Source of the DNA: Sulfitobacter sp. S190 | GTDB lineage: Bacteria > Pseudomonadota > Alphaproteobacteria > Rhodobacterales > Rhodobacteraceae | Reading direction: 5' to 3' | Length of the DNA stretch: 64,000 nt | Assembly: GCF_025141935.1 (NCBI RefSeq) | Contig: NZ_CP081125.1 | Location: 32,153 to 96,152, forward strand | Shown: piece by piece, positions 8,980 to 64,000 of the stretch | How the letters are laid out: each line of letters starts with the position of its first letter | Numbering within the stretch: the first letter of the stretch is position 1 | Notes under the pieces: generated by a model | Database searches by the model: none | Told to the model about the DNA's origin: nothing | Seen by the model: the letters and a program-made list of their open reading frames with translations, nothing else | Position numbers and translations under genes: made by a program

Positions 8980-9042
8980 GTGCGATCCTCTTCGAGGTGG
9001 TAAGCGAAAGGGTTAGCCGCTGACGTATCAGTGGATAATGAT

Positions 9043-9393
9043 ATGATGACGAACGACGCGCAAGGCGATCTTTTGGCAGCCGACGCTTTGGAACTGCGGG
9101 CAAAGCTCTTCCGGGGTCTCGGCGATCCCAGCCGTCTGGCGATCCTTGATGCGCTGGTATCAGGCGAACGCAACGTGCAGGAAATTGTCGGACATACTGG
9201 GTTGGGTCAGCCGAACGTCTCGAACCATCTGCGCTGCCTTCTCGACTGCGGGCTGGTTAGCCGCCGCAGCGAAGGTCGGTTCGTTCGGTATCGGCTTGCT
9301 GACGGACGGATTGCCGGTCTCGTCAAAGATGCGGATCGGCTTCTTGCCGCGACAGCCACCGGACTCGACAACTGCAAGCGCTACACAGAGTAG
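9043..9393 (+). CDS. ArsR/SmtB-family repressor, CmtR-like Cd/Pb sensor
   Basis: A ~116-residue winged-helix repressor (FRGLGDPSRLAILDALVSGE; recognition helix GQPNVSNHLRCLLDCGLV). Counting from ATG 9043, cysteines at 65 and 69 in the recognition-helix region and at 111 near the C terminus copy the C-x3-C plus distant C arrangement of CmtR, a Cd(II)/Pb(II) sensor, rather than the CxC of ArsR. A GTG at 9031 is also in frame, but the ATG-ATG at 9043 is the likelier start. It probably represses the divergent HMA-CDF gene. An AT-rich near-palindromic stretch around 9022-9050 is a plausible operator. Confidence 0.82.
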   Translation: MMTNDAQGDLLAADALELRAKLFRGLGDPSRLAILDALVSGERNVQEIVGHTGLGQPNVSNHLRCLLDCGLVSRRSEGRFVRYRLADGRIAGLVKDADRLLAATATGLDNCKRYTE

Positions 9394-9397
9394 GTGT

Positions 9398-26172: not shown

Positions 26173-26329
26173 CGTCGGCCTCCGGTGTCTCAAGTGGTTC
26201 AAAGATGCAGTTTGGTTCGATGGGCGCGACGGCTGCTCGAAAGGCGAAGCAGTTGACCGTGGGCTCACGATATTGCGCACAGGCGGTTAACAACCCCACT
26301 AGAGCAAACAAGACGAAAGTTCGGATCAT
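26162..26329 (-). CDS. virB7: VirB7-like small lipoprotein
   Basis: A 55-residue protein: MIRTFVLFALVGLLTACAQ carries a lipobox (LLTAC, lipidated Cys17), followed by a short mature part with two more cysteines (VNCFAF, PNCIFE). It overlaps the virB4 stop as ATGA and overlaps the next start. Size, lipobox and operon position fit VirB7, which anchors VirB9 in the outer membrane, sometimes by a disulfide. Sequence similarity to known VirB7 cannot be judged at this length. Confidence 0.75.
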   Translation of the reverse strand: MIRTFVLFALVGLLTACAQYREPTVNCFAFRAAVAPIEPNCIFEPLETPEADVEV

Positions 26330-28689
26330 GAAAGCCTCCAGAATTCGGGACGGTCACGGTAGTCGGTGCCGACAAGCGCCTCGCCTTTTTCCATCCCGCC
26401 GAGCATTGTGAGAAAGGGACCGAGGGCTGAGAGATCGGCGTCGACGACAACCGAGCCGGTGTCGTCGCGGATCAGGGCCAGACGGCTGTCGCTGCCGGTG
26501 TTCAGCAGAACATCAAGCTCTTTCTCGAAGAGGTTCAGCATCGCGTAATCCGAGGCATGGGCGCGGATGTTTGGCAGCAGGATCTGGGTGGGAACGGCTT
26601 CGACGATGGTCTTGCCCGTTCGCGTCCGTTCAAGCTGGCTTGCGTATTGGGTCATCATGACAGCGACGGTGTTCTGCTTTCGCGCCGTCACCAGCCAGTT
26701 GGAGAGGCGTTCGGCAAAATACGCGTTGTCGAGTGCCTTCCAGGCCTCGTCGATGACGATGATCGTCGGGCGGCGATCCTCGATTTCGCGCTCTACCCGG
26801 CGGAAGAGGTAGCTCAGAACCGCCATGCGTTCTTTTTCGGATTCTGAGTCCAGGATGCCCGTGAGATCGAAGCCCACCACATCGCCCTCGAGTGAAAAGG
26901 TGTCTTCGAGGCTTTGCCCGAAGATCCAGCCGTAGCGACCGTCTTCGGTCCATTCGAGCAGTCGCTGGTGCAGATCGCCATCGTCGTCGGTGGAGACGAA
27001 GAGGGAGGCGAAGTCCTTCCAGTTGCGCAGCTGCGGATTGGCCGCGCCCGCATTCTGGCGCACCACCTCCTGGATGCGGTTGTTCTGGGCGGGTGTCAGG
27101 GGTTTGTCAGAGCGATAGAGCAGGGATGCCAGCCAGTCCGAGAGCCACGCCATGCCGCGATCATCAGTCTCGGTCCAGAGCGGGTTGAGACCGGTTGCTT
27201 GTCCGGCTTTCACAGACGCATAGCGCCCGCCATTGGCGCGCACGGCCATCTCCATGCCGAGCCGGTAGTCGAAGACAAAGATGCGCGCTCCGACCCGACG
27301 GGCTTGGGTCATCAGAAAAGCCGAGAGGACGGATTTGCCGGACCCAGGGCGGCCGAGGATCAGCGTATGGCCCCCGGTCGGCTCTTTGTCTGGGGAACCT
27401 TGCTCGTGATAGGAGAACCGGTATGCACTTTGCTCGGGCGTCGGGAAGAGTGTTATCTCCTCGCCCCAAGGAAGCTGGTGTTTGTCTTTGCCGAGCTGCG
27501 TGCGATGCAGGGGCGCGAAATCCGCGAAGTTGCGGTTGGTCACAGCACTGGCCCGCACGCGTTTGGGCTGGTTGCCCGGATGCTGACTGAAGTAGTGGGT
27601 CTTGGCGGCCATGCGCTCGCCGATCATCTTCACGCCCTCGGCTGCGGCGGCATTGACGATCTCGGCCCCGAGGGTCTGCAATTCGTCGAGCGTGTCGCAA
27701 AACACGGTCACGACCATGTGGTGCTCGCCAAAGCTCTGGCGTTTTGCTTCAAGATCGTCGTGCGCGATGTCGAGGGCTTCGAGGAGCGACAGCGCGGCAT
27801 CTTGGGAGGCCTGCATCTGGCGCTTCTGCCGCTTGATCCGGCCCGCCATCAGGTTGGAATTGATCGGCGTGAAGGAGTGCGTGACGATCATGTCCACCGG
27901 CAGGTTCAACATGTCGAACATCGTGCAGGTGGTGGCCTCGGAATATTCGCCGATGGTGAAGCTTTTGCCGTAGCGGTGTCCCACCACGCCTTCGGTCAGC
28001 TCGAAATGCTCATCGAAGAAAGTGACGCGGGTATTGGCGACGTTGGTGGCGAGGAAGCCGTATCGGTTCGCCGGGTAGAGAGGCCGTTCCTGACCGGTGT
28101 TCAGAGCACCGAGAAACCCGACCAACTCGCCCGATTGTGCGGATAACAGCCGTGGTTTTAGGTCCGCCAGTCCAGAGGCGAATACGCCGACAGCTTCCTT
28201 CAGCCGACGGACCCGCTTCCGCGTCTCGGCCTTGAACCGCTCTGGATCGCTCCGATTGATAAAGCCCAGAAAGCTTTTCGGCGGCGGTCGATGGATGATT
28301 GTGAGTGTGAGCGTCTTGTCGCGCAGGCCGGACTGCCCAAGCTTCTCGCGCCATCTCTTATCAACCGCCGCCGCGAAGTGATCACCTGGGACGGGGAGGA
28401 GGTCCGGAGTGATCGCTTTCGAGACTTTGTGAACGTAGTAGCTGAACTCGGGCCCAAGCTGCGCTATGATCCGGGCGAAAAGCGCGGTCACCTTGTCGAG
28501 ATAGGCATCATCAGTCGTGTAGCTGTTCACGCCGCTGAGACGAACACACTGGAAGAGCTCGTTGACCCGCGTGCGTACCGTGTGCTCATCGACCAGGCTG
28601 ACATAGGGCAGCATATGCGCGAGGTGTTTCTCGCGGACATACCAGTCCGGCATGAGCGTGCGTTCATCCAACGTATCGTCACGGGGCAT
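26326..28689 (-). CDS. virB4: VirB4 ATPase
   Basis: A 787-residue ATPase that energises pilus biogenesis and substrate transfer. The N-terminal domain includes YVREKHLAHMLPYVSLVD; the ATPase half has Walker A LILGRPGSGKS near residue 440 and Walker B TIIVIDEAWKAL, then the MMTQYASQLERTRTG segment typical of VirB4. It overlaps virB3 by 11 bases and the lipoprotein gene by four. No membrane helix is evident, as in many VirB4 proteins. Confidence 0.94.
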   Translation of the reverse strand: MPRDDTLDERTLMPDWYVREKHLAHMLPYVSLVDEHTVRTRVNELFQCVRLSGVNSYTTDDAYLDKVTALFARIIAQLGPEFSYYVHKVSKAITPDLLPVPGDHFAAAVDKRWREKLGQSGLRDKTLTLTIIHRPPPKSFLGFINRSDPERFKAETRKRVRRLKEAVGVFASGLADLKPRLLSAQSGELVGFLGALNTGQERPLYPANRYGFLATNVANTRVTFFDEHFELTEGVVGHRYGKSFTIGEYSEATTCTMFDMLNLPVDMIVTHSFTPINSNLMAGRIKRQKRQMQASQDAALSLLEALDIAHDDLEAKRQSFGEHHMVVTVFCDTLDELQTLGAEIVNAAAAEGVKMIGERMAAKTHYFSQHPGNQPKRVRASAVTNRNFADFAPLHRTQLGKDKHQLPWGEEITLFPTPEQSAYRFSYHEQGSPDKEPTGGHTLILGRPGSGKSVLSAFLMTQARRVGARIFVFDYRLGMEMAVRANGGRYASVKAGQATGLNPLWTETDDRGMAWLSDWLASLLYRSDKPLTPAQNNRIQEVVRQNAGAANPQLRNWKDFASLFVSTDDDGDLHQRLLEWTEDGRYGWIFGQSLEDTFSLEGDVVGFDLTGILDSESEKERMAVLSYLFRRVEREIEDRRPTIIVIDEAWKALDNAYFAERLSNWLVTARKQNTVAVMMTQYASQLERTRTGKTIVEAVPTQILLPNIRAHASDYAMLNLFEKELDVLLNTGSDSRLALIRDDTGSVVVDADLSALGPFLTMLGGMEKGEALVGTDYRDRPEFWRLS

Positions 28690-49660: not shown

Positions 49661-50433
49661 GACTGGACGGCCTCCCAATTCTTTGGTGCGCCTTTAGGTG
49701 GCGGAGATGTCGAACACGTGACAGGAGCAAACCAAGGACCGCTGATCCGCCTTCACCAGACCTTGGCTGAGAAACCCACCGAGAGGTAGGCGCGTGGGGT
49801 CACGTTTCCCACACTAGTAAAGTGCGAAACCAAGTTCTACTTCGTCACGCTATCCAGCCTTCAAGAATGCTGTGTGGCAATGTTTGAAGTCGACGAGCGG
49901 GTTGTGCACCGTTCTTGTTCGCTGGCGGTAAAGTCTATCCAAGGTACCTTGATCGACCCTTTTGAGTCCTAAAACAATTGTTGGCGACAATTCTGGTCCT
50001 GACACAGGCAGGGGTTGCTGAAGTTGCACTCCCCTGCCCCACCACTGTCCTTCCCTCGTTCACGGCGAAGCCATCTAGAGGGCGGCTTGGACTGAATCTG
50101 CGTGATGGAGCCTGATGCACTTCATCTGATCGCGCGCCGATATCGTTGGCCGATGCGTTCAAGCGGACTCCGACGAGCGGTTCAAGGATTACCTACTCTG
50201 TTGGCCTCTGAAGTTGTAGACCGCCCTCCCAAACCTCGCAGCGCCCTGCCCTCGCTAGTCTCTGGAAGTGAATCTTGAACGCGTTCAAGAAGCGCAGATG
50301 TGAGGTGGGATGCTCCCAAACAAGCGCCTCAAGTCGCCTATGCGTGTGGTATCTTTATCTTTCCGTCGGAATAATGCTACTATCAAGCGAGAATCGAGTC
50401 GAACTCGGAATCAACCGATGTCGGGACAATATC
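49661..50433. other. Region upstream of repA, no gene seen
   Basis: About 770 bases without a convincing gene. It holds a perfect 12-base palindrome CAAGGTACCTTG (49939-49950), the parS-like palindrome at 50273-50290, a CGAGT/ACTCG dyad (50395-50407) and a predicted repA promoter (TTATCT 50355-50360, 17 bases, TACTAT 50378-50383). This is the expected place for RepA/RepB control of the operon. Confidence 0.5.
50273..50290. promoter_or_regulatory. parS: parS-like centromere palindrome, site 1
   Basis: A perfect 18-base palindrome TCTTGAACGCGTTCAAGA, 143 bases before repA. A second copy with one base changed is inside repB (52522-52539). RepB/ParB proteins of RepABC plasmids bind 16-18-base palindromes near the operon. 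Confidence 0.75.
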
Positions 50434-51789
50434 ATGAGCGGTAACCTTGAACAGTTTTTGACAGACCTGTCGCGCGGGCTTGAGCGCACGATGGTCGCCG
50501 TCAACAAAGAACTGACACTACGCCAGCGGATTAAGCGGACTTGGTCAATGCGCCAGTGCTCCCGCTTTCTGAATGTCAGCATCCAATACCTTACGAAGTT
50601 CGCCAACGCGAACGACGACTTCCCGGCGGGTGAATACGTGGGACGCGAGCGCGTCTTCACCCTGGCGGAATTGATGCACATGCGCGCTCTTCTGGCAGCG
50701 TCCGCGAAACGACCCTACGACTACTTGGCCTGGCGAAAGCCGGACGATCCACTTCCAGTCATTTCTTTCGCTAGCCAGAAAGGTGGCACCGCCAAGAGTT
50801 TGAGTGCGGCCCATTTTGCCCAGTATCTTAGCTTGCACTACGGCATGCGTGTCGGAGTTATGGATGCCGACCCCCAAAGCACCATCACGCTCTACTTCGT
50901 AGGCGGCGAGGGGCTTCCGCAAATGCCTGACGAGAACACGGCCTCCATGGTGGATTTTGCCGGTCTTTTTCAATCCGACGAAGCGCCGTTCACGGACCAT
51001 GACGCGGATACACTCGATAGCTTTCTGTTGAAGACCTCTTGGCCAGGGCTCCGCCTTCTACCAGCCCATGGTGAAACGTCTGAAGGTGAAATTCAAATTG
51101 CCCGATTGGTTCGCGAAGCGCCGCCTGGAAAGAGTTTCTACCGGTATCTTCGTGATGCAATCGATCGGTGGAAGGGAGGACATCCGCCCCAGACCGCACC
51201 CAACGAATTGGTTCAGGACGGTAAGGTCGACGTCGAAAAGTTGGATGTTGCTCTGAATGAGACGCTGGATTGCATCATTATCGACTATCAGCCCGCGTTG
51301 ACACTGTTCCAACTGAACAACGTGATTGCCTCTTCATCGCTCGTCATTCCTCAGACAATGAAAGGATTTGATATCGCGACGCTCTCGACTTTCGTCACCG
51401 GCCTGCTCGGTATGCTGCAGCACATCCTTGCGCACGAGCGGATCGAGATAGGTTCAGGTGCGAATATGCTGCTTCCAACCATAGTGCAGCGTTCTAACGC
51501 TCAGGACCTGAACCACATCGGTAACATGTTGGAGCATTGCCCCACTGAAATCCTGCCCGTGTTCTATTTGCGATCCGACGCGATTTCCAACGCATCGGAC
51601 GTCTATCAGTCCGTCTATGAGTACGAGCCGGACACTCCGGGCAAACGCAAGGGCATCAATCGATTCATTGCGAATGCGGATGCGGTCAACGACGCAATCA
51701 TTAGCCGTCTTTGGCCTGGGTTGGAGCGCGGCTATGCCAACGCCTGGATGGATGACTTCTATGACGACGACGGGGAGGACGCAGCATGA
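50434..51789 (+). CDS. repA: RepA, ParA-type partition ATPase of the repABC cassette
   Basis: A 451-residue partition ATPase. The N-terminal ~100 residues hold a MerR-like helix-turn-helix (RQCSRFLNVSIQYLTKFANA); the ATPase begins at PVISFASQKGGTAKS (deviant Walker A KGGTAKS ~116-122) and has DADPQSTITLYF and DCIIIDYQPALTL. The frame is open further upstream (TTG 50275 inside the palindrome), but ATG 50434 matches the family start MSGNLEQFLTDLSRGLE. It overlaps repB by four bases. RepA also represses the operon. Confidence 0.9.
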   Translation: MSGNLEQFLTDLSRGLERTMVAVNKELTLRQRIKRTWSMRQCSRFLNVSIQYLTKFANANDDFPAGEYVGRERVFTLAELMHMRALLAASAKRPYDYLAWRKPDDPLPVISFASQKGGTAKSLSAAHFAQYLSLHYGMRVGVMDADPQSTITLYFVGGEGLPQMPDENTASMVDFAGLFQSDEAPFTDHDADTLDSFLLKTSWPGLRLLPAHGETSEGEIQIARLVREAPPGKSFYRYLRDAIDRWKGGHPPQTAPNELVQDGKVDVEKLDVALNETLDCIIIDYQPALTLFQLNNVIASSSLVIPQTMKGFDIATLSTFVTGLLGMLQHILAHERIEIGSGANMLLPTIVQRSNAQDLNHIGNMLEHCPTEILPVFYLRSDAISNASDVYQSVYEYEPDTPGKRKGINRFIANADAVNDAIISRLWPGLERGYANAWMDDFYDDDGEDAA

Positions 51790-52802
51790 AACGGAGTATC
51801 CCACGTTCTTTGGTCTCAAAGGCCATCAGCCAGTCAACAGAAGACAAACAACTGCCTGATGAAAGTGGGGCGAGCGTTACTTCTGAGGCAGTACCTAAGC
51901 CCTTCAAGGGGGCCGGAAGCGCATGGAAAGCCGGAGCGCTGGCACAGTCACAGGCTGCTGTAGAGCAGAGCAGGGAGCAGCTAGCTGCGGATATTCTGAA
52001 TGGTCGGCATGAACTTACCTTGAGCCCCAGCCAGGTGAGCGATCTACTTGGTTCCGACCGTCGTGAAGACTGGATGGAACAAGAGGCCTTTAAGACGCTC
52101 ATCGAGAGTATCGAGGCGAATGGGCAAGATACTCCCATACTTGTTTGGCCTGAAGACCCGAACTGGATCCCTGACCCTCTTGATCCGACAGGCGTGGACA
52201 ATGTGCCGTTCATCTTACTTACCGGACGGCGACGGCACGCTGCGGCTGTGCAGCTTGACCGGAAGCTTCGAGCGATCCTCGCTCCTCCTGAATTGCGTTC
52301 AGCGCACAACGCCCAATTTGAGATGCTATTTGTACGCTTCAGAGAGAACGAAGCTCGCGAAAATCTCGGTGCTTTCGAGCGCCTGTTGTCCATCGGCGAG
52401 ATGTACAACGCTTTGCAGGATGCGGGAGAAAAGCTGACCGCAGTTGCATTTGCTGCACGCATTGGTGTTCACGAGAGTATAGTGTCCCGCGCACGCGCAG
52501 TTTTTGCGTCGAAAGACGAAATCTTGAACACGTTCAAGAATGCGTATGAGCTGAGTTTTCGGGACCTTCAGGCGGCTCTGGCTAGCCTTGAGTCCAAACC
52601 GAAAGCGTCTGCTAGAAAGGCAGCTACCAAGCTCACGGCAAAACGCAAGGTGGGCAATCGCAACCTAACGCTGACATCGGCGAACGGGAGTCTCTCGGTC
52701 AAGGCGTCGGGTGTGCCGATCAGTAAGGTTCAACTCGAGGAGCTGAGCGACCTGATCGCGGAGTACTTGAACAAGAACAAGGAGGAGCCGTCAAAGGAGT
52801 GA
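51786..52802 (+). CDS. repB: RepB, ParB-type centromere-binding protein
   Basis: A 338-residue protein: flexible N terminus (MKRSIPRSLVSKAI), ParB/Srx-like domain (FKTLIESIEANGQDTPILVWP; PFILLTGRRRHAAAVQLDRKL, RENEARENLGAFERLLSIGEM) and an HTH (TAVAFAARIGVHESIVSRARAVFA). A lysine-rich C terminus follows. It overlaps repA (ATGA). The gene itself contains the second parS-like site. RepB should bind those sites and load RepA for partition. Confidence 0.92.
   Translation: MKRSIPRSLVSKAISQSTEDKQLPDESGASVTSEAVPKPFKGAGSAWKAGALAQSQAAVEQSREQLAADILNGRHELTLSPSQVSDLLGSDRREDWMEQEAFKTLIESIEANGQDTPILVWPEDPNWIPDPLDPTGVDNVPFILLTGRRRHAAAVQLDRKLRAILAPPELRSAHNAQFEMLFVRFRENEARENLGAFERLLSIGEMYNALQDAGEKLTAVAFAARIGVHESIVSRARAVFASKDEILNTFKNAYELSFRDLQAALASLESKPKASARKAATKLTAKRKVGNRNLTLTSANGSLSVKASGVPISKVQLEELSDLIAEYLNKNKEEPSKE
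52522..52539. promoter_or_regulatory. parS: parS-like palindrome, site 2 (inside repB)
   Basis: TCTTGAACA-CGTTCAAGA matches site 1 at 17 of 18 bases, the single difference being at the centre. It lies in codons for EILNTFKN of RepB, so the sequence is kept despite coding constraint. Confidence 0.7.
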
Positions 52803-53017: not shown

Positions 53018-54307
53018 ATGACACAGACAGGTTGGCGCAAGCCGACACCGGGTCTTGGCGTAGCAGAACAGCTCGCTCAAGCCGGTGAACGGAAATCTAT
53101 ACCCAAACACGAGGCGTTCGTCGCCGTGAAGCGCGTCGGCGCCTATATCGGGCTGAAGGCCAGCGATCTGATGCTGCTCGACACGCTGGGGGCATTCACA
53201 CAGCCCCAGGATTGGGAAGAGCGCAGGCGGCCGATCGTCTGGGCGTCCAACGCTTACCTTATGGAGCAGACGGGCTTTTCCCTCTCAGCCCTTAAGCGCC
53301 ACGCACGGCGCCTGGCCGAAGTTGGCGTGATCGCGTTCAAAGACAGCCCCAATGGCAAACGCTGGGGCAGACGAAACCCGGACGGTCACATCATCGAGGC
53401 CTATGGCTTCGATCTGTCACCCATGGCGGCCCGTGTCGAGGAGTTCACCGAGCTCTACGGGCACATCCAGGCCGAGCGGGCGCTCTGTCAGCGCCTGAAG
53501 CGTCAGATCACCGTAGCGCGCCGGATGATCCGCGCGCGGATCGAGGCGGCGCTTCAGGCCGACCTCAGCGGCGCATGGGCGCGGTATCTGGAGCGCTTCG
53601 AAGGCCTCCTGAGCCGTCTTCCGCGGGCCAATGCGGCCTCCGAGACGCTCGAGCAAATCCTCAGCTGGTTCACTGAGCTGCAGCAGCGAGTCGAGCAGGC
53701 CTATCTCAAGGCAGTTCGCGCGGATGAAGTCGTGGAGAACCCGGCAACAACAGAGGTACAAGTCACCGAGAAGATTCAAGAAATGAACCCCAAGGAGGTC
53801 ATTTCCGAACCTCATATACTAATTACAAAACAACTAGATCCTGTAATTAGTAGTTGCTCAGAAAAAGAGCAAGCGGCGGGCGTGGCACCCGAAAGACCGA
53901 CCGTGGTGCCAGTGGAGAGGCCGGAACAGAAAGAGCAGGGAACTGAGGCGACAAAACTGGCCCGAGGCGTGGCTGTGGATGTGGCGACCGTCATGCAAGC
54001 CTGTCCGGAATTCGCGTTTTGGGCGCGGAACATGGGTGGATACCTGAGGGATTGGGGTGATTTGTACCGGATTGCCGGCGATCTCAAGAAGATCATTGGA
54101 ATCTCGGACCACGCCTGGCTGGCGGCCCAGGAGGCGATGGGCAAACAGATGGCCGCGGCAGCCATGGCGCTGGTCTTCGACAAGCACGCCAAGGGCGAGA
54201 TCGCCTCAGCGGGTGGCTATCTGCGCGGCATGACGGAGAAAGCCGGGGCAGGGGAGCTGCATCTGGAACGGAGTTTCTATGGCAGGCTCAGCGGACAGGC
54301 GGCGTAA
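53018..54307 (+). CDS. repC: RepC replication initiator
   Basis: A 429-residue initiator: RKSIPKHEAFVAVKRVGAYIGLKASDLMLLDTLGAF, RRPIVWASNAYLMEQTGFSLSALKRHARRLAEVGVI (winged-helix DNA-binding half) and the conserved C-terminal AFWARNMGGYLRDWGDLYRIAGDLKKIIGIS. RepC binds the origin located inside its own gene, where a sharply AT-rich stretch is present here (53810-53860). The length is normal for the family. The antisense RNA upstream is expected to control it. Confidence 0.95.
   Translation: MTQTGWRKPTPGLGVAEQLAQAGERKSIPKHEAFVAVKRVGAYIGLKASDLMLLDTLGAFTQPQDWEERRRPIVWASNAYLMEQTGFSLSALKRHARRLAEVGVIAFKDSPNGKRWGRRNPDGHIIEAYGFDLSPMAARVEEFTELYGHIQAERALCQRLKRQITVARRMIRARIEAALQADLSGAWARYLERFEGLLSRLPRANAASETLEQILSWFTELQQRVEQAYLKAVRADEVVENPATTEVQVTEKIQEMNPKEVISEPHILITKQLDPVISSCSEKEQAAGVAPERPTVVPVERPEQKEQGTEATKLARGVAVDVATVMQACPEFAFWARNMGGYLRDWGDLYRIAGDLKKIIGISDHAWLAAQEAMGKQMAAAAMALVFDKHAKGEIASAGGYLRGMTEKAGAGELHLERSFYGRLSGQAA
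53810..53860. other. oriV: AT-rich repeat inside repC, candidate replication origin (oriV)
   Basis: Within GC-rich repC, 53810-53860 is distinctly AT-rich and contains the dyad ACTAATTACA/TGTAATTAGT (53818-53827, 53842-53851) and CAACTA/TAGTTG (53831-53836, 53851-53856). In RepABC plasmids the origin lies in an AT-rich segment in the middle of repC, so this is the best candidate. Confidence 0.6.
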
Positions 54308-54319
54308 TGGCGCTGGCGA

Positions 54320-55450
54320 TCAGAGACCCGCGGCCTTGGTCAGGTTCACCCGGAACCGGTCCCTTCGGCGCTGGTAGCGGCGGGTCATCTCAGCCGAGGC
54401 ATGCCCGAGGTGCTTCTGAACGTAGCGCTCGTCGACTTCAGCTGAGCTGGCGAGACCGGCGCGCAGCGAATGACCGGAGAAGAGCGCCAGGCGGTCTTTT
54501 TCAGGCAGTTCGGAGCGGATGCCCGCGTCCAGGACCGTGCGCTTGATGAGCCGCGCGACATGCTTGTCGTTCAGCCTCGTCTCAGATGCGCGCTTGCCGT
54601 CCCGCGAGGTGCCAACAAAGACCGGACCGAAGTCGATTTTCGCGAAGTGCAGCCATTGCTCGAGCGCATGCACAGGGCAGGTGGAGTCGGACGATCCGCG
54701 GCCGATCTCGACCTCGCGCCAGCCGGTCTTGGCATTCAGCGTGAGCACCGCACCATCGTCGAGGATCTCAACCCAGCCGCCGCTATCGGGCGTATCGTCT
54801 TTCCCGACATCCAAGCTGACGATTTCCGAGCGACGGAGACCGCCGGCATAGCCCAGAAGCAGGATCGCCCGGTCACGCAACCCACGCAGATCGAAGGGCA
54901 GGGTGGCCACCATCGCCAGGATGTCTTCCGGCAGGATCGCTTCCTTCTGCACCGGGGGTCGCGCGTGCTTTCGTTTGATGCCGGCGAGCACGGTCGAGAT
55001 GTGGCGGTTCTTCCGATCGAGGGTGAAGCCACGCTGCGTCGCGTTCCAGGCCAGGCCGGAAAGCCGACGGTCAATGGTACTCACAGAGAGGGCAGGGGAC
55101 CCGTTCGACGGCGCGGCCAGATCGGTCAGATAGAGGCCGATCATCTCGGGCGAGGGGGGCAGAGGGTCCGTGCCCCTCAACCTGCACCAGCGAGCGAAGT
55201 GCTTCCAGTCCGCAGCGTAGGCCTTGTTGGTGTTCTCGGCGGTGGAAGCTTTGGCATAGTCACGGGCCGTGTCGACTAAGCGATCGAGCGTGCCGGATCC
55301 GGCGACGTGGGCGGGCAGGGCGATGCCTGGCTCTTCCGGAGGCACGCTCTCGTCGTGCTCATCAATGTTCGGCGCGTCATGGGACGCTGAGCTCGTAATC
55401 TCAGCCTCAAGGGCTGATTTGGTACCGTTATTTATGAGATTCCGCGCCAT
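54320..55450 (-). CDS. Tyrosine site-specific recombinase
   Basis: A 376-residue integrase: an N-terminal SAM-like DNA-binding domain (SGTLDRLVDTARDYAKASTAENTNKAYAADWKHFARWCRLRG) and a catalytic domain with Arg in GGLRRSEIVSL, HSLRAGLAS (HxxR), GHAS (His) and the nucleophilic Tyr in RRYQRRRDRF. An N-terminal extension of ~45 residues is acidic. It may resolve plasmid multimers or integrate the element. It is convergent with repC and divergent from the DUF1403 gene across an inverted repeat. Confidence 0.9.
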   Translation of the reverse strand: MARNLINNGTKSALEAEITSSASHDAPNIDEHDESVPPEEPGIALPAHVAGSGTLDRLVDTARDYAKASTAENTNKAYAADWKHFARWCRLRGTDPLPPSPEMIGLYLTDLAAPSNGSPALSVSTIDRRLSGLAWNATQRGFTLDRKNRHISTVLAGIKRKHARPPVQKEAILPEDILAMVATLPFDLRGLRDRAILLLGYAGGLRRSEIVSLDVGKDDTPDSGGWVEILDDGAVLTLNAKTGWREVEIGRGSSDSTCPVHALEQWLHFAKIDFGPVFVGTSRDGKRASETRLNDKHVARLIKRTVLDAGIRSELPEKDRLALFSGHSLRAGLASSAEVDERYVQKHLGHASAEMTRRYQRRRDRFRVNLTKAAGL

Positions 55451-55574: not shown

Positions 55575-56453
55575 ATGGCATACGCCGCTGACAGCTTCGA
55601 CACACTACCCCGGATGCCGACCTGGGTCACCTCGGCGCGGCCCGAAGCCCCTGAAGATGTGGCGTTTTTGTCGGGGGCTGCCCTGAACCATCTGCATCTT
55701 GTGTTGCGCCGGGCCGACGTCCCCCAGACCTTGCTCCGGGCGCGGCTGGCATTGCGCGCCGCGGAGGCCTGCGTGACGCACCAGGGACGCCCGGAACTGG
55801 CGGCTGAATTGCGGGATGCAGTGGCATTCCTACAGCCGGGTGACAGTCCGGGTCCCGCTGGCGAAATCTATCTGTCATGGCGGCGAGCCGTCGAGCGCCC
55901 GGTCTCGGTGAAAGGGCTACATCGCGCGCTACCAAATCTCGATCCGAGCCAGATTGCCGCCTGGCTGGACACAGGGCAGGGGACGCCGGTCGCGCGGGCT
56001 GCGGCCGTGTGTCATGCCATGATCGAGGAGCGTCCACGAGACCACACCTCGTCACTGCTGCTCGCAAATGTGGCATTAGCACAAGCGCTCGGGTGGAGTC
56101 ATGTCGTGCCGCTGCTGGCGATCGGTCTGAAGCGTGGCGAAGTGCGGAATGCCGGCGACGACCTGCATCTGGCGTGTCATCGGGCGATCGTGACGGCAGC
56201 GACCGAGGCAACACGGGAGGGCGCTGATTTGGCCCGCTGCGCCGCGCGCTTGAAAGAGGTCGCGCCGAAGCTCCGGGCAAGGGGATCCGATGAGGCTGTC
56301 GCGCTGTTCCTGGACCGGGACGCGGTCGCGCCGGCGGCACTGACATCGCTGCGGTCCGATCGCGCGGCACGCCGGTTCTGTGATCGACTGGTGGAGCTCG
56401 GCGCCGTGCGCGAGCTGACCGGGCGCGACACGTTCCGGCTCTATGGGTTATGA
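55575..56453 (+). CDS. DUF1403-family protein
   Basis: A 292-residue alpha-helical protein. MPTWVTSARPEAPEDVAFLSGAALNHLHLVLR, LRARLALRAAEACVTHQGRPE and VARAAAVCHAMIEERPRDHTS match my memory of DUF1403, found in alphaproteobacteria and often on plasmids, with no known function. It overlaps nothing but lies 64 bases before the scpB-like gene, suggesting an operon. Confidence 0.78.
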   Translation: MAYAADSFDTLPRMPTWVTSARPEAPEDVAFLSGAALNHLHLVLRRADVPQTLLRARLALRAAEACVTHQGRPELAAELRDAVAFLQPGDSPGPAGEIYLSWRRAVERPVSVKGLHRALPNLDPSQIAAWLDTGQGTPVARAAAVCHAMIEERPRDHTSSLLLANVALAQALGWSHVVPLLAIGLKRGEVRNAGDDLHLACHRAIVTAATEATREGADLARCAARLKEVAPKLRARGSDEAVALFLDRDAVAPAALTSLRSDRAARRFCDRLVELGAVRELTGRDTFRLYGL

Positions 56454-56517
56454 GCATGGCCAGCAAAAGTGGGTACCGGTTTCGCGGTTCGGCCATGCGA
56501 CCAACGAGAGGCCTGTG

Positions 56518-57132
56518 ATGGCGAAGGACCACGCAGACCAGGCGCTAGACCGGGAGCTGGACGAGCTACCCGCGGACCTGCGATGGCGCGAATGGATGCG
56601 CCGGATTGAAGCTGTGCTTTTTGCTTCCGCGTCACCCGTGCCGCGCGAGGACCTCGCTCGGGTGGTGGGGCAGGGGGCCTCGATCGATCTGTTGATCGAC
56701 GATCTGATGGCAGACCTTGAAGGACGTTCCTTTGAAGTGGCCAAGGTGGCCGGTGGTTGGATGCTGCGGACGCGGCCGGCCTATGCGGCGGCGATCCGGA
56801 CCGCGGCGGATGTCAGCGATCAGGATCTCAATCTGCGCGAATACGATGTGGCCGTTCTGGCCGCCATTGCCTATCACCAGCCGGTCACGCGGGACGGTCT
56901 CAAGGATATCTTCGGCAAGGAGATAAGCCGCGATCTGATCGGCCGCTTGCATGCCCACGGTCTCATCGGCACGGGACCACGATCCCCGCGGCGCGGCGCA
57001 CCCTACACCTATGTGACAACCGAGCAGTTCCTAGTCGCTTTTGATCTAGAGTCGCTCCAGGACTTGCCGGACCGGGAGCAGCTCGAGGATGCGGGGCTTG
57101 CAGGTGAAGGACCACAAGTCGCTTTCGGCTAG
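56518..57132 (+). CDS. scpB: ScpB-like condensin/segregation subunit
   Basis: About 204 residues with the ScpB double winged-helix pattern: WRRIEAVLFASASPVPREDLARVVG, FEVAKVAGGWMLRTRPAYAAAI, DLNLREYDVAVLAAIAYHQPVTRDGLKDIFGKEISRDLIGRL and RRGAPYTYVTTEQFLVAF. ScpB normally works with SMC and ScpA, which are not seen here. An upstream in-frame ATG (56443) lies within the DUF1403 gene; ATG 56518 is preferred. A copy carried on a plasmid beside partition genes may help segregation. Confidence 0.82.
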   Translation: MAKDHADQALDRELDELPADLRWREWMRRIEAVLFASASPVPREDLARVVGQGASIDLLIDDLMADLEGRSFEVAKVAGGWMLRTRPAYAAAIRTAADVSDQDLNLREYDVAVLAAIAYHQPVTRDGLKDIFGKEISRDLIGRLHAHGLIGTGPRSPRRGAPYTYVTTEQFLVAFDLESLQDLPDREQLEDAGLAGEGPQVAFG

Positions 57133-57249: not shown

Positions 57250-57458
57250 ATCGTTTCATTCGCCGTGCAACGATTCATGTGGCGTGACAGAAATAGTCGC
57301 AATTTCAATATGATAATCGTTTCGGCCATTTCACGAAGTCGGCTTTTGCTTCCTAACCCAAGAATCGTTTCAAAATCCGTGAAGCGAAAACTTGCATCGA
57401 GGAAAAATGTATGTGTATCAATATTCTAATCGTTTCAAACTTGCGGAATATCGTTTCA
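57250..57458 (+). repeat. Five ATCGTTTC(A/G) direct repeats upstream of the Fic gene
   Basis: Copies at 57250-57258, 57316-57324 (last base G), 57364-57372, 57429-57437 and 57450-57458, all in the same orientation, fill the AT-rich 325-base gap between scpB and the Fic gene. The last copy ends on the A of the start codon. The regular motif suggests an operator array, perhaps for the HTH domain of the Fic protein itself. Confidence 0.7.
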
Positions 57459-58744
57459 TGGCCTTGTCGGATCAAGACGTTCTCGAATTTGTCGGCGAGA
57501 ACCCGGGTGCCGGACGCGATGCCATCCGGAGGGGCGTTGCAAGGGATGTGAGCGAAACCACTATATGGCGTCTCTTGAAGCGCATGGTGGAGGAAGGTCG
57601 CCTCGAGGTATCTGGCAAGGGCAGGGCGACGGGATACAGGATCGCCGGGGGTGCGGTCGTCCGGGCGCATTTGTCGACGCCGTACAACAGGCGAGCACCG
57701 GTGTCCTATCGACCGGAGTTTCTCGACGCGTACGTCCCGGAAAAGACATGGTACCTGTCTGCATCAGACCGCAAAAGGCTGTTGGAGGCCGGTCGCCCAC
57801 AGGGAGGCGCAATTCCAGCCGGAACATACGCACGTCGGATCCTTGAACAGCTTCTGGTCGATCTCAGTTGGGCGTCGTCCAGGATGGAGGGGAACACCTA
57901 CGACATTCTGCAGACTGAGCGACTGATCAGGTTTGGCGAAGAAGCTGCGGGGAAGGATCGAAAAGAAGCCCTGATGATCCTCAACCACAAGGAAGCTATC
58001 CAGTATGTCGTCCACAATCTCGATGAGATCGGGCTTCGGCGTCCGGATCTGTTCGCGATCCATGCGCTGCTCTCAGACGGTCTTTTGGCGGACCCGGCCA
58101 TGTCGGGCCGGTTGCGTGCGATGCCGGTCGGGATCTCGCACTCGAGCTATCGACCGCTCGATGATGCGGTCACGATCGCAGAGGAATTCGACATCCTGCT
58201 GCACAAGGCTGCGCAGATCACCGATCCGTTCGAGCAGTCCTTCTTCCTCTTGGTGCACATCCCGTATCTCCAGGCTTTTGCCGACGTCAACAAGCGGACT
58301 TCACGCGTGGCCTCGAACATCCCACTTCTGAAATCGGATCTTGCGCCGATGTCTTTCACGACGATGGAGGACAGCGATTACATCGACGGGCTCATCGGGG
58401 TCTACGAACTGAACAACGTCTCGTTGCTGCGCGATGTCTACATAGACGCGTATCTGGCTTCCGCCGAAAAGTACCGAATTCTCCGCGCTGAGGTGGAGAG
58501 CCCGGAAAAAGCGGCTTTGGCCTATCGGGAGTTTGTTCGCTCAGCCGTCCGGCGCTGTGTTCTCGAATTCAAGGAGTTCCGAAACGATGCGGTGAATGAG
58601 ATGGCTTTGGCTGCTGGCGTGCCCGATGCTGATCGAGCGGATGTCGTCGCATACGTCCGTGAGCAGATCGCAGGGCTCCATGAAGGCAACGTAATCCGCT
58701 ATCGGCTGAAACCAGATGATCTGGAAGGAATGAACCTAAGCTAG
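57458..58744 (+). CDS. Fic-family protein with N-terminal winged helix, degenerate active site
   Basis: A ~428-residue protein: winged-helix DNA-binding region (residues 1-62, VSETTIWRLLKRMVEEGRLEVSG), an inhibitory-type motif SSRMEGN (S140-E144-G145) and a Fic core. Where active Fic proteins have HPFxDGNGRxxR, this has QAFADVNKRTSR (272-283), so the catalytic His is Gln while the nucleotide-binding residues remain. A longer frame from TTG 57392 exists, but ATG 57458 is preferred. It is upstream of the Shango-like genes and may act as their regulator instead of as an AMP transferase. Confidence 0.82.
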   Translation: MALSDQDVLEFVGENPGAGRDAIRRGVARDVSETTIWRLLKRMVEEGRLEVSGKGRATGYRIAGGAVVRAHLSTPYNRRAPVSYRPEFLDAYVPEKTWYLSASDRKRLLEAGRPQGGAIPAGTYARRILEQLLVDLSWASSRMEGNTYDILQTERLIRFGEEAAGKDRKEALMILNHKEAIQYVVHNLDEIGLRRPDLFAIHALLSDGLLADPAMSGRLRAMPVGISHSSYRPLDDAVTIAEEFDILLHKAAQITDPFEQSFFLLVHIPYLQAFADVNKRTSRVASNIPLLKSDLAPMSFTTMEDSDYIDGLIGVYELNNVSLLRDVYIDAYLASAEKYRILRAEVESPEKAALAYREFVRSAVRRCVLEFKEFRNDAVNEMALAAGVPDADRADVVAYVREQIAGLHEGNVIRYRLKPDDLEGMNLS

Positions 58745-58860: not shown

Positions 58861-61404
58861 ATGTCTTCAATATTCAAGTTTTTTCGAATTACATTCTTCC
58901 TCGTTCTGTATTTCTTTTTGTGCGTGGTCGTGGTGACCACAATGCTTCAGGATTGGCCGGACGGCGGCCAGATGCTGTTTGCGTTCGGTGTTCCTGTCAT
59001 TCTCGTGTGGTGGCAGGAAAAACGGAGATCGCGGAAAGTCGCTGCACAAGCGCAAGCCAAGGGAAGTTCCGAAAACCGAACATACCGATCTGAGCCGAAA
59101 GTCCGGCCAAGTGCCAATGACAAACGTATCGAGCGTGAGCGCGGACGAACTCGCGAAGCCAATGTTTCCAAAGCATCGGCTGCGACTAAAGCCTATTCCC
59201 CACCGAAGCAGGACTACGCCGAGATCGTTCGCGCTGGAAAGTCTGCTGCGCCCGCTCTTGCGGCAGCCGCTGAAAGAAAAAAATCTGGACGAGTTGCATC
59301 GAGCAGGTTGTCCCGAACAAAGAAGAGTGGATGGGTCCCGTCTACCGAAACTGCCAGCGTGGCCGGCCGCAACATCGGCGGGATGGTCTATGTCGGTACA
59401 CCTCCCTTGCTGAACTCCTACGGGTATCGCGACAAATGCCGGGCCTATATCGATCCGTCCCTTTCGGTCGCACGCTCAGGCACGGACAAGGCTGGCGATG
59501 GCATGCCGTATTGGCCTGGATACTCGGATATTTCACCTCAGTGCCGGGCGACCTACCTCGACTGGTTGGCCAGCGGGCGAAACGATGCCTCCTATAACCC
59601 CGGCTACATGTTCCTTTATTTCTATGGGCTGGAGCGTCGCTTCTTCGTCGATCAGTCAAATGTAGATGCCAATGATATCGTACAAGAAGTTCGGCGGCTC
59701 CAGTCGCTTTACTCTGACAACCACTCCGTCAGGCGCTATTTGGGTGAGTTCCTCGACATTGCGATGCTTGCTGAAACCGACCTCGACGCTATCGAGCCGA
59801 TTTTTGAGAAGCAGGGCTGGGAATTGCCGTTCTCACTCAAATACGCAATCGGAGCTCGGATCGACAAAGGTGCAAACCTGACGGCTGACTGGCTGCTAAG
59901 TTGGTTCATATGCCATCCCGAAGGCAATCTGAGAACTCCCGCGACGCGGTGCCGTGACGAGTTCATCGCCCTATTCCGCATGCGATTTGATCAACGATTT
60001 CCGGACGGACTTAAAGTTACCAAGCCTAGGAAGAAGCTCACGGCGTCCTATCGGGCCGCTTCCAGCGAGTTTCAGGGGTCCGCCAACCCAACCGTGGATG
60101 GCAAGCCTGTCCCGGATATTTCCGGCCTGCGCAAACCGATCGAGATTGCCCGGGAGCTGGCTGATGAGGTGATGAACGATCTCGACAAGCTCAGTCGCTT
60201 CCTGGGCCGAAATCCTGATGGCCGCGGAAGCGTTGAAGCGCATGCCTTGATGCCCACTGAACTTTGGGAGGCCTTCCCATCCGAGGAAATGGACCGCTTG
60301 AAATCCTGGGCAAGCGATATCGTCGATCGAGGGGGATTGGTGCCGCTTAAGGAGCTGATCGGACGTCTGGAGGGAGAAACGAACGAGAAAATCGGGAAAC
60401 GGCAGATGACAGGAGCGGCCGACGCGCTCGCGCGCCTCGGTTTTGGTCTCGCACCTGACCCTCGGTTTGCACTCCGATCACCCAAAGCGGAAGAGCCCGT
60501 TGTGCTGTTTAGCCTGGGTGAACCCATCGAAAGACTGGAGGAAGTTTCCGACAGCTATCGAAGCGCCTTGATGGAATTGGCACTTGGATCGTTCGTCGCC
60601 CATGCGGATGGTCGCATCGCGGAGCCTGAACGCAGGGCGCTGGAAGGTCAGGTTTCTGACGCGGCCCTCAGCAATCAGGAACTCCGCAGGCTGCGCGCAA
60701 ACCTTGAATGGTTCCTGGCTGTGCCGCCGGACATGACGCTTCTGCGGCGCAAATTGAAAGATGTGGGCCAAGACAGCCAGGCCGCTTTGCGCGCAGCACT
60801 GGTTAGTGCAGCACATGCTGATGGAATTATTCACTCCGACGAAGTCGCAAGCATCGAGAAAATCTACAAGGCTTTGGGCCTCGATCCTGCGCTAGCATAC
60901 TCGGACCTGCATGCTGGTGAAGTTGCGGATGGTCCTCGCGCTGTTCGTGCCTCGCAACCGGGTCGTCCGGGTGAAGCGATACCCCATCTTGAAAAAGCCA
61001 ACGGACCCAAACTCGACGCGTCGCGGATCGCAGCAATCCGTTCGGACACTGAGCGGGTGTCGTCTGTCCTGGGCCAGATTTTCGATGTCGAAGAAGAAGA
61101 AAGCGGTGTTTCCGGACCTGCCTACCAAAGTCAGCTGGCAGGGCTGGACCCAAAACACGACGCCCTTGTCCTTGAACTGGTAACTCGGGAGCATTGGTCT
61201 GAAACCGAGTTCGAGACGATCTGCGCCTCGCACGGCTTGATGGCGTCTGGGGCTTTGGAAGTCGTGAACGAATGGGCTTTTGAGATCTATGATGAAGCGC
61301 TTCTTGACGAGTATGATGGATATGACGTGTCTCCGAAGATTGCGGAGGCAGTAAAAGAAAAGATGAGTGCGGATGGCAGGGATGTCGAAGTTGAAACCAC
61401 GTGA
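58861..61404 (+). CDS. sngA: TerB-domain protein, Shango-like component A
   Basis: An 847-residue protein. Two membrane helices (~8-28, ~36-52) and a basic, disordered linker (53-150) precede the TerB_N domain (~155-260: GMVYVGTPPLLNSYGYRDKCRAY, then YFYGLERRFFVDQ). A central helical region follows, then a TerB (TerB-like) helical domain ~575-690 (LGSFVAHADGRIAEPERRALE; AAHADGIIHSDEVASIEKIY) and a TerB_C-like end. The gene order TerB, ATPase, helicase matches Shango, an anti-phage system. The N-terminal membrane anchor suggests the complex sits at the membrane. Its stop overlaps the next gene. Confidence 0.85.
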   Translation: MSSIFKFFRITFFLVLYFFLCVVVVTTMLQDWPDGGQMLFAFGVPVILVWWQEKRRSRKVAAQAQAKGSSENRTYRSEPKVRPSANDKRIERERGRTREANVSKASAATKAYSPPKQDYAEIVRAGKSAAPALAAAAERKKSGRVASSRLSRTKKSGWVPSTETASVAGRNIGGMVYVGTPPLLNSYGYRDKCRAYIDPSLSVARSGTDKAGDGMPYWPGYSDISPQCRATYLDWLASGRNDASYNPGYMFLYFYGLERRFFVDQSNVDANDIVQEVRRLQSLYSDNHSVRRYLGEFLDIAMLAETDLDAIEPIFEKQGWELPFSLKYAIGARIDKGANLTADWLLSWFICHPEGNLRTPATRCRDEFIALFRMRFDQRFPDGLKVTKPRKKLTASYRAASSEFQGSANPTVDGKPVPDISGLRKPIEIARELADEVMNDLDKLSRFLGRNPDGRGSVEAHALMPTELWEAFPSEEMDRLKSWASDIVDRGGLVPLKELIGRLEGETNEKIGKRQMTGAADALARLGFGLAPDPRFALRSPKAEEPVVLFSLGEPIERLEEVSDSYRSALMELALGSFVAHADGRIAEPERRALEGQVSDAALSNQELRRLRANLEWFLAVPPDMTLLRRKLKDVGQDSQAALRAALVSAAHADGIIHSDEVASIEKIYKALGLDPALAYSDLHAGEVADGPRAVRASQPGRPGEAIPHLEKANGPKLDASRIAAIRSDTERVSSVLGQIFDVEEEESGVSGPAYQSQLAGLDPKHDALVLELVTREHWSETEFETICASHGLMASGALEVVNEWAFEIYDEALLDEYDGYDVSPKIAEAVKEKMSADGRDVEVETT

Positions 61405-62689
61405 ACGCGATGCAATTGTACAGGCCCTTCGAGCCGGGGTCGTGCCCAAGCTCGGTTTGCGCCATATCCAGGTCGGCCGCGTCCGGGAGATTGAAGAGCT
61501 CGTCAAGGACATGGACCGGATATCCGATGGCGGATCGGCAATCCGATTCATCATCGGGGAATACGGATCGGGCAAGACATTCTTCATGAACCTGATCCGC
61601 CTCGTCGCCTTGGAGAAAGGCCTGGTCGTCATGTTCGCGGATCTGGCGCCGGATCGCCGCATTCACGCGACCGGCGGGCAAGCCCGAAGGCTTTATGCAG
61701 AGATGGCCCGAAATCTGTCGACGCGGACAAAGCCAGACGGCGGGGCATTGGCCAGCGTGGTGGAGAGGTTTGTCAGCCAGGCTCACCGAGATGCCGAAGA
61801 ACGGGATTTGCCAACAGGGTCTATCATTCGTGAACGCCTTGGCCACTTTGAAGAGCTTACCGGGGGGTTTGAGTTCGCTGAAGTCATCCGTCGATATTGG
61901 GAAGGCCATGAGACCGGCGACGACGAGTTGAAATCCGCGGCCCTGAGGTGGCTGCGCGGTGAATTCGCGACACGCACCGACGCGCGCAAGGCGCTTGGTG
62001 TGCGAACGATCATCGACGACGCCAGTGTCTATGACCATCTGAAGCTGATGTCGGCATTCGTGTGCGAGGCCGGCTACAAAGGATTGCTGGTCGGCCTCGA
62101 CGAGATGGTGAATCTCTACAAGCTCACCTCGTCGCAAGCGCGCAATGCAAACTACGAACAGATCCTCCGGATTCTGAATGATGTGTTGCAAGGTAGTGCC
62201 GAGAACCTCGGATTTCTAATGGGCGGGACCCCGGAGTTTCTGATGAACACCCGTCGAGGGCTATACAGTTACGAAGCCCTTCAATCGCGTTTGGCCGAGA
62301 ACACCTTCGCGCGAGACGGATTGATCGACCTTTCAGGACCGGTTGTCCGGCTGGCCAGTCTGACCCCTGAAGACCTCTTCGTTCTTTTGGCCAATGTCCG
62401 GCGGATCATGCAGGAAGATGCCGGAGCTTTACCGGACGACGCGCTCGAGGCCTTCATGGCGCATTGCTCGGACCGGATCGGTGAAGCTTACTTTCGCACC
62501 CCGCGCAATACGGTGACGGCCTTCGTGAACCTGCTTTCCGTGCTTGAGCAAAACCCCGGTATCGAGTGGAGCGATCTGATCGAACAGATTGAAGTCTCCG
62601 AAGACCTCGGCGAAGACATGACCGAGGTAGACGAGTCGACTGGCGCCCAAGACCCCGGTGACGATGACCTGATCAGCTTCAAGCTCTGA
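61382..62689 (+). CDS. sngB: P-loop ATPase (DUF2791/BrxD-like), Shango-like component B
   Basis: A ~435-residue AAA-type ATPase with Walker A GEYGSGKT (59-66) and Walker B LLVGLDEM, opening RERDAIVQALRAGVVPKLGLRHIQVGR, typical of the family that includes BrxD. The acidic tail (DDDLISFKL) is short. GTG 61367 and ATG 61373 are alternative starts; ATG 61382 gives the family N terminus and overlaps the upstream gene by 23 bases. It is predicted to load or drive the helicase on phage DNA. Confidence 0.86.
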   Translation: MSKLKPRERDAIVQALRAGVVPKLGLRHIQVGRVREIEELVKDMDRISDGGSAIRFIIGEYGSGKTFFMNLIRLVALEKGLVVMFADLAPDRRIHATGGQARRLYAEMARNLSTRTKPDGGALASVVERFVSQAHRDAEERDLPTGSIIRERLGHFEELTGGFEFAEVIRRYWEGHETGDDELKSAALRWLRGEFATRTDARKALGVRTIIDDASVYDHLKLMSAFVCEAGYKGLLVGLDEMVNLYKLTSSQARNANYEQILRILNDVLQGSAENLGFLMGGTPEFLMNTRRGLYSYEALQSRLAENTFARDGLIDLSGPVVRLASLTPEDLFVLLANVRRIMQEDAGALPDDALEAFMAHCSDRIGEAYFRTPRNTVTAFVNLLSVLEQNPGIEWSDLIEQIEVSEDLGEDMTEVDESTGAQDPGDDDLISFKL

Positions 62690-62694
62690 CGCCG

Positions 62695-64000
62695 ATGAGC
62701 AGTGCGTTCGACAAACTGGCGAGGCCTGTGCAGAAATGGATTCGCCAGAAAGGATGGCGCGAACTTCGCGACATCCAGGCGCGATCCATCCGGACGATCT
62801 GCGAAACCAATGCCGATTTGATCGCTGCGGCTTCCACGGCGGGCGGAAAGACTGAGGCGGCGTTTCTGCCATTGATTTCACAGGTGCTTGACGAGCCGTC
62901 GGGCGGCACCGGCTTCGACCTGCTCTACATCGGTCCGCTGAAAGCTCTGATCACGGACCAGGCCATGCGGCTGGAGGACATCTGCCAAGAAGCAGAGCTT
63001 CCGGTTGTTCCCTGGCACGGGGATGTCTCGCAATCGATCAAGACGCGCGCGTTGAAATCTCCAAAAGGGATTCTTCTGATAACCCCAGAGTCCCTTGAGG
63101 CGCTTTTTATTCGTCGCGGTTTGGAAATTGCCCGCTTGTTTGGGGCCACGCGGGCGGTCGTGATCGACGAACTGCACACAGTTCTGGATAGCGAACGTGG
63201 TGTCCAGCTTCGTTCACTGCTCACAAGGCTCGAGCTCGCGATAAAGCGCCCAATCCGTCGGATAGGTCTGTCAGCGACACTGGGCGACATGGACCTCGCC
63301 AAGGCCTATCTTCGTCCTGATGCCGCAAACGTTGTCGAGCTGATCGAAGCAGATAGCGGCGAGGCTGAATTGAGGCTCCAGCTTCGCGGCTACCTCTCCG
63401 GCGATGAAGATGAAAACAGCCCGTCCACAACGGACGCAATTGCAGCCCATCTGTTCAAGCATCTTCGAGGCAGCGACAACCTGGTCTTCGCCGGAGCACG
63501 ACAATGGGTCGAGATTTATGCGGATCGATTGCGGGAGCTTTGCGAACGGGAAGGCCTGCCGCAGGAATTTTATCCCCATCACGCGAGCCTCTCCCGCGAA
63601 CACCGTGATTTCGTCGAGCGCCGTCTAAAGGACGCCGCAATACCGACAACTGCCGTCTGTACGTCGACGCTCGAACTTGGAATCGACATCGGTGATGTGA
63701 CCTGTGTAGCCCAAATCGGCGCACCATTCAGCGTCGCGGCTTTGCGGCAACGGCTCGGGCGATCAGGCCGGCGAGAAGGACAACCGGCCATTCTCAGGCA
63801 GTACGCTGTCGAAGCCAAGTTGACGCCGGAGAGCAGTTTCGTGGATCGCCTTCGCCTCGGCTTGATCAGGTCCATCGCGATGATAGACCTGCTGTTGGAA
63901 GGCTGGTGCGAACCGCCAAAACCTCAGGCGCTTCATCTCTCGACGCTCGTCCATCAGATACTGTCGGTCATCGCGCAGCGCGGCGGTGCGTCTGCAAGTG
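62695..64000 (+). CDS. sngC: Lhr/BrxHI-like superfamily 2 helicase, Shango-like component C, 3' partial
   Basis: The gene starts with ATG 62695, five bases after the ATPase stop, and runs off the window at 64000 after ~435 codons. Visible helicase motifs in order are Q motif (RDIQARS), Walker A ASTAGGKT (46-53), DELH box (VVIDELHTV), SAT (GLSATLGD), motif V (TSTLELGIDIGDV) and motif VI QRLGRSGRR. The helicase core is complete; the missing C-terminal part is the Lhr-type accessory region. Confidence 0.9.
   Translation, partial: MSSAFDKLARPVQKWIRQKGWRELRDIQARSIRTICETNADLIAAASTAGGKTEAAFLPLISQVLDEPSGGTGFDLLYIGPLKALITDQAMRLEDICQEAELPVVPWHGDVSQSIKTRALKSPKGILLITPESLEALFIRRGLEIARLFGATRAVVIDELHTVLDSERGVQLRSLLTRLELAIKRPIRRIGLSATLGDMDLAKAYLRPDAANVVELIEADSGEAELRLQLRGYLSGDEDENSPSTTDAIAAHLFKHLRGSDNLVFAGARQWVEIYADRLRELCEREGLPQEFYPHHASLSREHRDFVERRLKDAAIPTTAVCTSTLELGIDIGDVTCVAQIGAPFSVAALRQRLGRSGRREGQPAILRQYAVEAKLTPESSFVDRLRLGLIRSIAMIDLLLEGWCEPPKPQALHLSTLVHQILSVIAQRGGASAS

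Follow-up and report, generated by a model that had tools for sequence, protein, structure and literature searches.

The 64,000-nucleotide stretch of Sulfitobacter sp. S190 analysed here (the window; bases 32153-96152 of contig C6, NZ_CP081125.1) carries at positions 58861-64000 a Shango anti-phage system in the order sngA-sngB-sngC, an ordinary member of a known system. A 2026 review (PMC12926258) counts the way in which Shango acts on phages among the unknowns; the widespread N-terminal anchor of SngA described below narrows that question, indicating where the complex should work and offering a testable prediction.

The Shango locus and the N-terminus of SngA

All three PADLOC models were matched, the check named by the first-pass annotation, which had recognised the set as Shango from the sequence alone: SngA by the product of sngA (E-value 2.1e-101), SngB by that of sngB (3.2e-176, with BrxD at 1.8e-46), and SngC by the translation from 62695 (4e-194 over profile positions 3-435 of 720, with BrxHI at 1.1e-91). 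Pfam agreed with the same annotation's account of a TerB_N/TerB/TerB_C protein, a BrxD-like ATPase and an Lhr-like superfamily 2 (SF2) helicase, placing TerB_N at SngA residues 160-361 (3.2e-66), TerB at 573-677 (4.7e-9) and TerB_C at 713-831 (1.2e-22), assigning SngB to BrxC_BrxD (PF10923, 2.3e-152), and finding DEAD and Helicase_C domains in SngC, whose helicase motifs STAGGKT, DELH, SAT and QRLGRSGRR are readable in the translation. The closest solved chain to an intact SngC relative was 5v9x, which we take to be an Lhr-type DNA helicase. The three genes lie on one strand, sngA and sngB overlapping by 23 nucleotides and sngB and sngC being separated by 5, and their order is the same in relatives; the start of sngB was set at the ATG at 61382 after an annotated relative (locus L114), with a GTG at 61367 as an in-frame alternative.

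SngA appears, from its hydrophobic N-terminus, to be tied to the cell membrane, as do most of its relatives. The AlphaFold2 model, built on a 71-sequence alignment with a mean predicted local distance difference test score (pLDDT) of 81.3 over the whole chain, begins with two helices (2-28 and 34-68), ten-residue pLDDT means being 90-97 over residues 1-60 and 69 over 61-70. Of the two membrane helices that had been proposed, the first is clear, with a peak hydropathy of 2.8 in a 17-residue window (residues 10-26, strong), and the second is modelled, yet marginal by hydropathy (1.5 at residues 35-51); a stricter membrane-helix screen called the first and not the second. The basic linker of about 100 residues, also part of the earlier proposal, was recovered as 26 lysine and arginine residues against 9 aspartate and glutamate residues between positions 55 and 152.

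Of the 79 loci found in named genomes, 76 have a hydrophobic segment ahead of the SngA core, a count made, like that of the phylum draw below, on the open frame leading up to the core, with the start codon not proven. Among the three exceptions, the matching N-terminal part of L033 sits in another frame, in L065 the contig starts only about 120 bases ahead of the match and the frame is closed there, and L068 has no explanation for the absent segment. At the protein level such a segment was present in 99 of the 120 best matches of the window SngA (alpha-type; best 120 of 1064) and in 113 of the 120 best matches of Pantoea SngA (enterobacterial type; best 120 of 632), all 240 being counted; many, not all, of the 28 homologues without it are partial or late-starting. 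Of 398 genomes drawn from the phylum, 13 contained SngA, the window's own included; among the other loci, 11 have an uninterrupted N-terminal side and 9 of these show the segment (the 5'-cut L101, L104 and L106 and the window's own L094 being left out, and L105 and L108 belonging to one genome). Conservation of the N-terminal helices in homologues, the test set beforehand, was thus borne out, and homologues starting after residue 60 without helices were not seen as a class, single exceptions apart.

The form of the anchor varies. Two N-terminal helices are predicted for the window SngA, and two are also found in Burkholderia and Sphingobium, whereas the proteins of Klebsiella, Salmonella and Pantoea have a single helix followed by a lysine/arginine run; gamma-type SngA is 25-31% identical to the window SngA in alignment. 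Past the last helix, 35 of the 42 alpha-type proteins and 24 of the 25 gamma-type ones carry a net charge of at least +3. As the charges are mostly positive-inside, the TerB domains would end up on the cytoplasmic side whether the anchor is a hairpin (N-in, C-in) or a single helix (N-out, C-in), and anchors that differ in form with the same topological outcome suggest that membrane location matters for Shango. A SngA membrane anchor is therefore usual as judged from these sequences, its form being variable and the charges in most proteins predicting a cytoplasmic body. One homologue (P0061) has a LysM domain ahead of a single membrane helix, which would put a peptidoglycan binder in the periplasm. 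No mention of the anchor was found in the searched portions of the Shango literature; the 2022 discovery paper and a 2012 review on Ter lay outside that search, and the anchor may already be in print.

The sngC break at the contig join

The helicase gene is cut by the end of the window, which is also the end of C6 (96,152 bases). The contig is circular, matches to relatives continuing from its last bases to its first without a missing or an extra base, and the continuation that the first-pass annotation had called for was found at about C6 bases 1-860; it is, however, out of frame twice. Against the intact SngC of Ruegeria THAF33 (723 amino acids), residues 437-454, 454-611 and 607-721 match three different frames, the changes falling some 50-100 and 500-550 bases past the point where the circle was opened. 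Elsewhere, 68 of the 70 loci with an sngC keep it in one frame over at least 90% of its length, nine loci with no sngC match being left out; of the two not counted whole, the match of L057 stops 128 bases before the contig end and in L077 the match starts at residue 82. In the same frame scan, certain rows of SngA and SngB scored as broken reflect short alignments or an overrun stop codon, and no SngA or SngB count was used.

This copy of Shango, frame-broken in the last third of sngC, may not work, and the breaks could be real or artefactual. A decaying remnant, in which two true frame changes cost sngC its last third and protection was lost, is plausible, at rather less than an even chance. 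In line with it, the gene lies in a single frame in nearly all related loci that have it, a genome completeness of 99.98% argues against indels throughout the assembly, and sngC was the sole gene needing more than one frame where C6 matched the open reading frames of 82 related loci, barring a 56%-identity match inside another gene at 88207; that comparison covered part of the plasmid, much of which had no match in the related loci. The pieces past the breaks nevertheless look selected as coding, with ratios of nonsynonymous to synonymous substitution (dN/dS) of 0.05 and, for the less strongly constrained last piece, 0.33 against L054, and of 0.05-0.15 against L084 and L030, so that any break would be recent. 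Assembly errors gather where circular contigs are cut open, and the two changes lie within about 550 bases of that point, next to the contig ends. That they are such errors, in an otherwise whole system, we rate as an even call: it would fit the selection on all sngC pieces and the single frames of the other compared genes, and it sits less well with a join that is exact to the base against relatives, as in a clean assembly, and with the value of 0.33 for the last piece. Because both breaks are so close to the linearisation point, true decay and assembly error are not separable here; we lean slightly towards error.

Plasmid setting and occurrence

The RepABC plasmid with conjugation genes proposed by the first-pass annotation is recovered in the window, Pfam finding RepC, relaxase, VirD4, VirB4 and TrbI among nine proteins scanned (Table 1).

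Table 1. Features of the Shango locus and its plasmid, in window positions.
Feature	Position	Strand	Basis
sngA, TerB_N/TerB/TerB_C protein with predicted N-terminal membrane anchor, 847 amino acids	58861-61404	+	PADLOC, Pfam
SngA predicted membrane hairpin (model helices 2-28, 34-68)	58864-59064	+	AlphaFold2, hydropathy
SngA basic linker, residues 55-152	59023-59316	+	charge count, mostly low model confidence
sngB, P-loop ATPase, BrxC/BrxD family	61382-62689	+	PADLOC, Pfam PF10923
sngC, first 435 codons, Lhr/BrxHI-like SF2 helicase core	62695-64000	+	PADLOC, Pfam
repA	50275-51789	+	Pfam AAA_31/CbiA
repB	51786-52802	+	position and nucleotide match to annotated ParB/RepB genes; no Pfam match
repC	53018-54307	+	Pfam RP-C
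Tyrosine recombinase (backbone ahead of cargo slot)	54320-55450	-	Pfam, synteny
DUF1403 (backbone ahead of cargo slot)	55575-56453	+	Pfam, synteny
ScpB (backbone ahead of cargo slot)	56512-57132	+	Pfam, synteny
Fic-family gene	57458-58744	+	Pfam Fic E 2.7e-6; PADLOC PDC-S04 5.8e-10, SoFic 8.2e-7
Relaxase	2185-4425	+	Pfam
VirD4/TraG	4418-6439	+	Pfam
TrbI/VirB10 type	21442-22833	-	Pfam
VirB4	26326-28689	-	Pfam

Plasmid carriage of Shango is common: a SngA-like match was present in 678 of 72,556 plasmid records, including 450 from Klebsiella and 144 from Salmonella. Within the family of the source genome, SngA was found in 17 of 394 genomes, the window's own included. In one locus (L100), a single open frame of 1908 amino acids spans SngA and portions of both SngB and SngC, as if the operon had been fused by deletions.

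In related plasmids the slot reads, as far as shown, repABC or repBC, an opposing recombinase, DUF1403, ScpB, a variable part, sngABC, a second variable part, and DUF736 with relaxase genes; its left half has the same layout in Phaeobacter inhibens pP88_c, where a Fic gene is also present, and in Paracoccus p4. DUF1403 or ScpB lay upstream in 19 of the 79 loci, and a repC match in 16 (8 at 65-70% and 8 at 27-34% identity), with at most about 8 kilobases (kb) examined per locus and less than 3 kb available in 13 of the 79. A contrary case is Sulfitobacter D7, in which repC and Shango are about 19 kb apart, separated by unrelated metabolic genes. Several related plasmids carry Shango in the rep-adjacent slot among other defence genes, and four plasmids without it (L109-L112) hold there type I restriction genes, an AAA and UvrD pair, an ATPase with an S8 peptidase, and a large ATPase. 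As the cargo following repC, recombinase, DUF1403 and ScpB is mostly defence-like, the slot may be a plasmid defence hotspot; the word DUF1403 was not found in the surveyed part of the literature.

The Fic gene of the window ends 116 nucleotides upstream of sngA, and in 12 of the 79 related loci the Fic gene starts 1399-1400 nucleotides ahead of sngA. The Fic products of those 12 loci are 94-97% identical and their SngA proteins 78-95%; being closer in identity than SngA and at fixed spacing, Fic may be an optional fourth member of Shango.

Past the contig join, a dense defence island occupies C6 1615-9910, with a MazG_C and UDG pair at 3025-4856 and four TIR genes of ThsB type (1615-2253, 2217-2768, 5351-5866 and 8771-9910), of which one adjoins an Nmad2 gene and another overlaps the SLOG LD_cluster3 gene at 8169-8822. 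The 1017-amino-acid product of C6 11551-14604 matched nothing in Pfam or PADLOC at E 0.001, and the next gene (14935-15975) encodes, by eye, a putative selenophosphate synthase.

Proposed mechanism and known systems

We consider it probable that Shango is carried here as cargo near the rep genes of a RepABC plasmid with conjugation genes, and that its SngA is membrane-tethered and holds the SngB/SngC machine. The N-terminal helices would hold SngA in the inner membrane, while a flexible basic linker would carry TerB_N, TerB and TerB_C on the cytoplasmic side. SngA would recruit SngB and SngC, an ATPase and a helicase that are homologous to the BrxD-BrxHI pair of BREX; the result would be an ATP-driven DNA-processing machine held at the membrane, the site of phage DNA entry. 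The present copy, with its broken sngC, would either have lost its function recently or be misassembled where the contig ends meet. Family identity, the hydrophobic N-terminus, its wide conservation and the predicted topology were computed; complex formation, DNA as the target and action at entry, including the tethering near phage DNA entry that had been suggested earlier, we infer.

Several points weigh against this reading. Hydropathy and a predicted fold are no proof that SngA inserts into the membrane, and the second helix, at 1.52, scores the same as residues 67-83 of the presumably soluble SngB (1.52). The counts over the 79 loci and the phylum draw rest on frames with unproven starts, no N-terminal helix was seen in Moraxella SngA, the segment is absent from 2 of the 11 phylum-draw loci (L097 and the genome of L105/L108), and 7 of the 42 alpha-type proteins fall below a net charge of +3. 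Read straight through, sngC as assembled encodes 464 amino acids where about 723 are expected. In SngA, SngB and residues 1-435 of SngC, Pfam recognised neither a nuclease nor any other domain that would kill, so that the model leaves the stopping of the phage unexplained. Some of these points would also suit a cytoplasmic SngA, its hydrophobic N-terminus being a packing element or the product of a wrongly called start: the match to the SngA model of PADLOC does not start before residue 117, the hydropathy of the second helix is marginal, and a few relatives lack any such segment. We regard this as very unlikely, given the strength of the first helix, the fact that alpha- and gamma-type proteins carry their anchors at the same end although these show no evident similarity in sequence, and charges that mostly obey the positive-inside rule. 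TerB is named for tellurite resistance, and a 2012 review reportedly proposed a Ter-type envelope or metal stress role, in which case phage defence would be secondary; this appears extremely unlikely, many neighbours here and in relatives being defence genes. The homologous three-gene Shango locus of Pseudomonas aeruginosa PA14, moreover, protects against phages according to PMC10250203.

A broader proposal, which we hold tentatively and just short of evenly balanced, would make Shango a membrane-assembled DNA machine in which SngA is a near-obligate inner-membrane tether, its anchor swapped over evolutionary time between a two-helix hairpin, a single helix and a LysM domain plus helix, and its body kept cytoplasmic, bringing a BrxD/BrxHI-type motor to the entry of phage or plasmid DNA. 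In Rhodobacterales it would turn up repeatedly as cargo in a defence slot close to the rep genes of transferable plasmids, and by virtue of that recurrence may also police competing plasmids.

Among known systems, BREX shares the motor pair, SngB matching BrxD and SngC matching BrxHI, both secondary to and weaker than the Sng models. BrxD, BrxHI and PglX/PglZ belong to the BREX type 2 gene set; PglX/PglZ gave no PADLOC match among 14 proteins around the locus, the remaining plasmid genes lying outside that scan. Zorya likewise combines a membrane part with a helicase, but no motor-like channel subunits or nuclease domain were seen by Pfam in the window Shango. A helicase tree groups SngC with BrxHI, DruE and DpdJ (PMC12278908).

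The Shango loci of PA14 and Escherichia coli consist, like the one described here, of three genes for a TerB protein, an ATPase and a DEAD/DEAH helicase, and the SngA anchor is not mentioned in the accessible part of that description (PMC10250203); the window locus differs in lying on a RepABC plasmid and in its frame-broken sngC as assembled. Closest in setting are Ruegeria THAF33 pTHAF33_c, Phaeobacter inhibens pP88_c and Paracoccus SCSIO 75233 p4, in all of which Shango follows repABC, recombinase, DUF1403 and ScpB in the slot that it has here. In these three and in Sulfitobacter faviae, whose plasmid Shango has been published (PMC10221251), the helicase genes are annotated whole, at about 723-726 amino acids, unlike here, and the other cargo differs.
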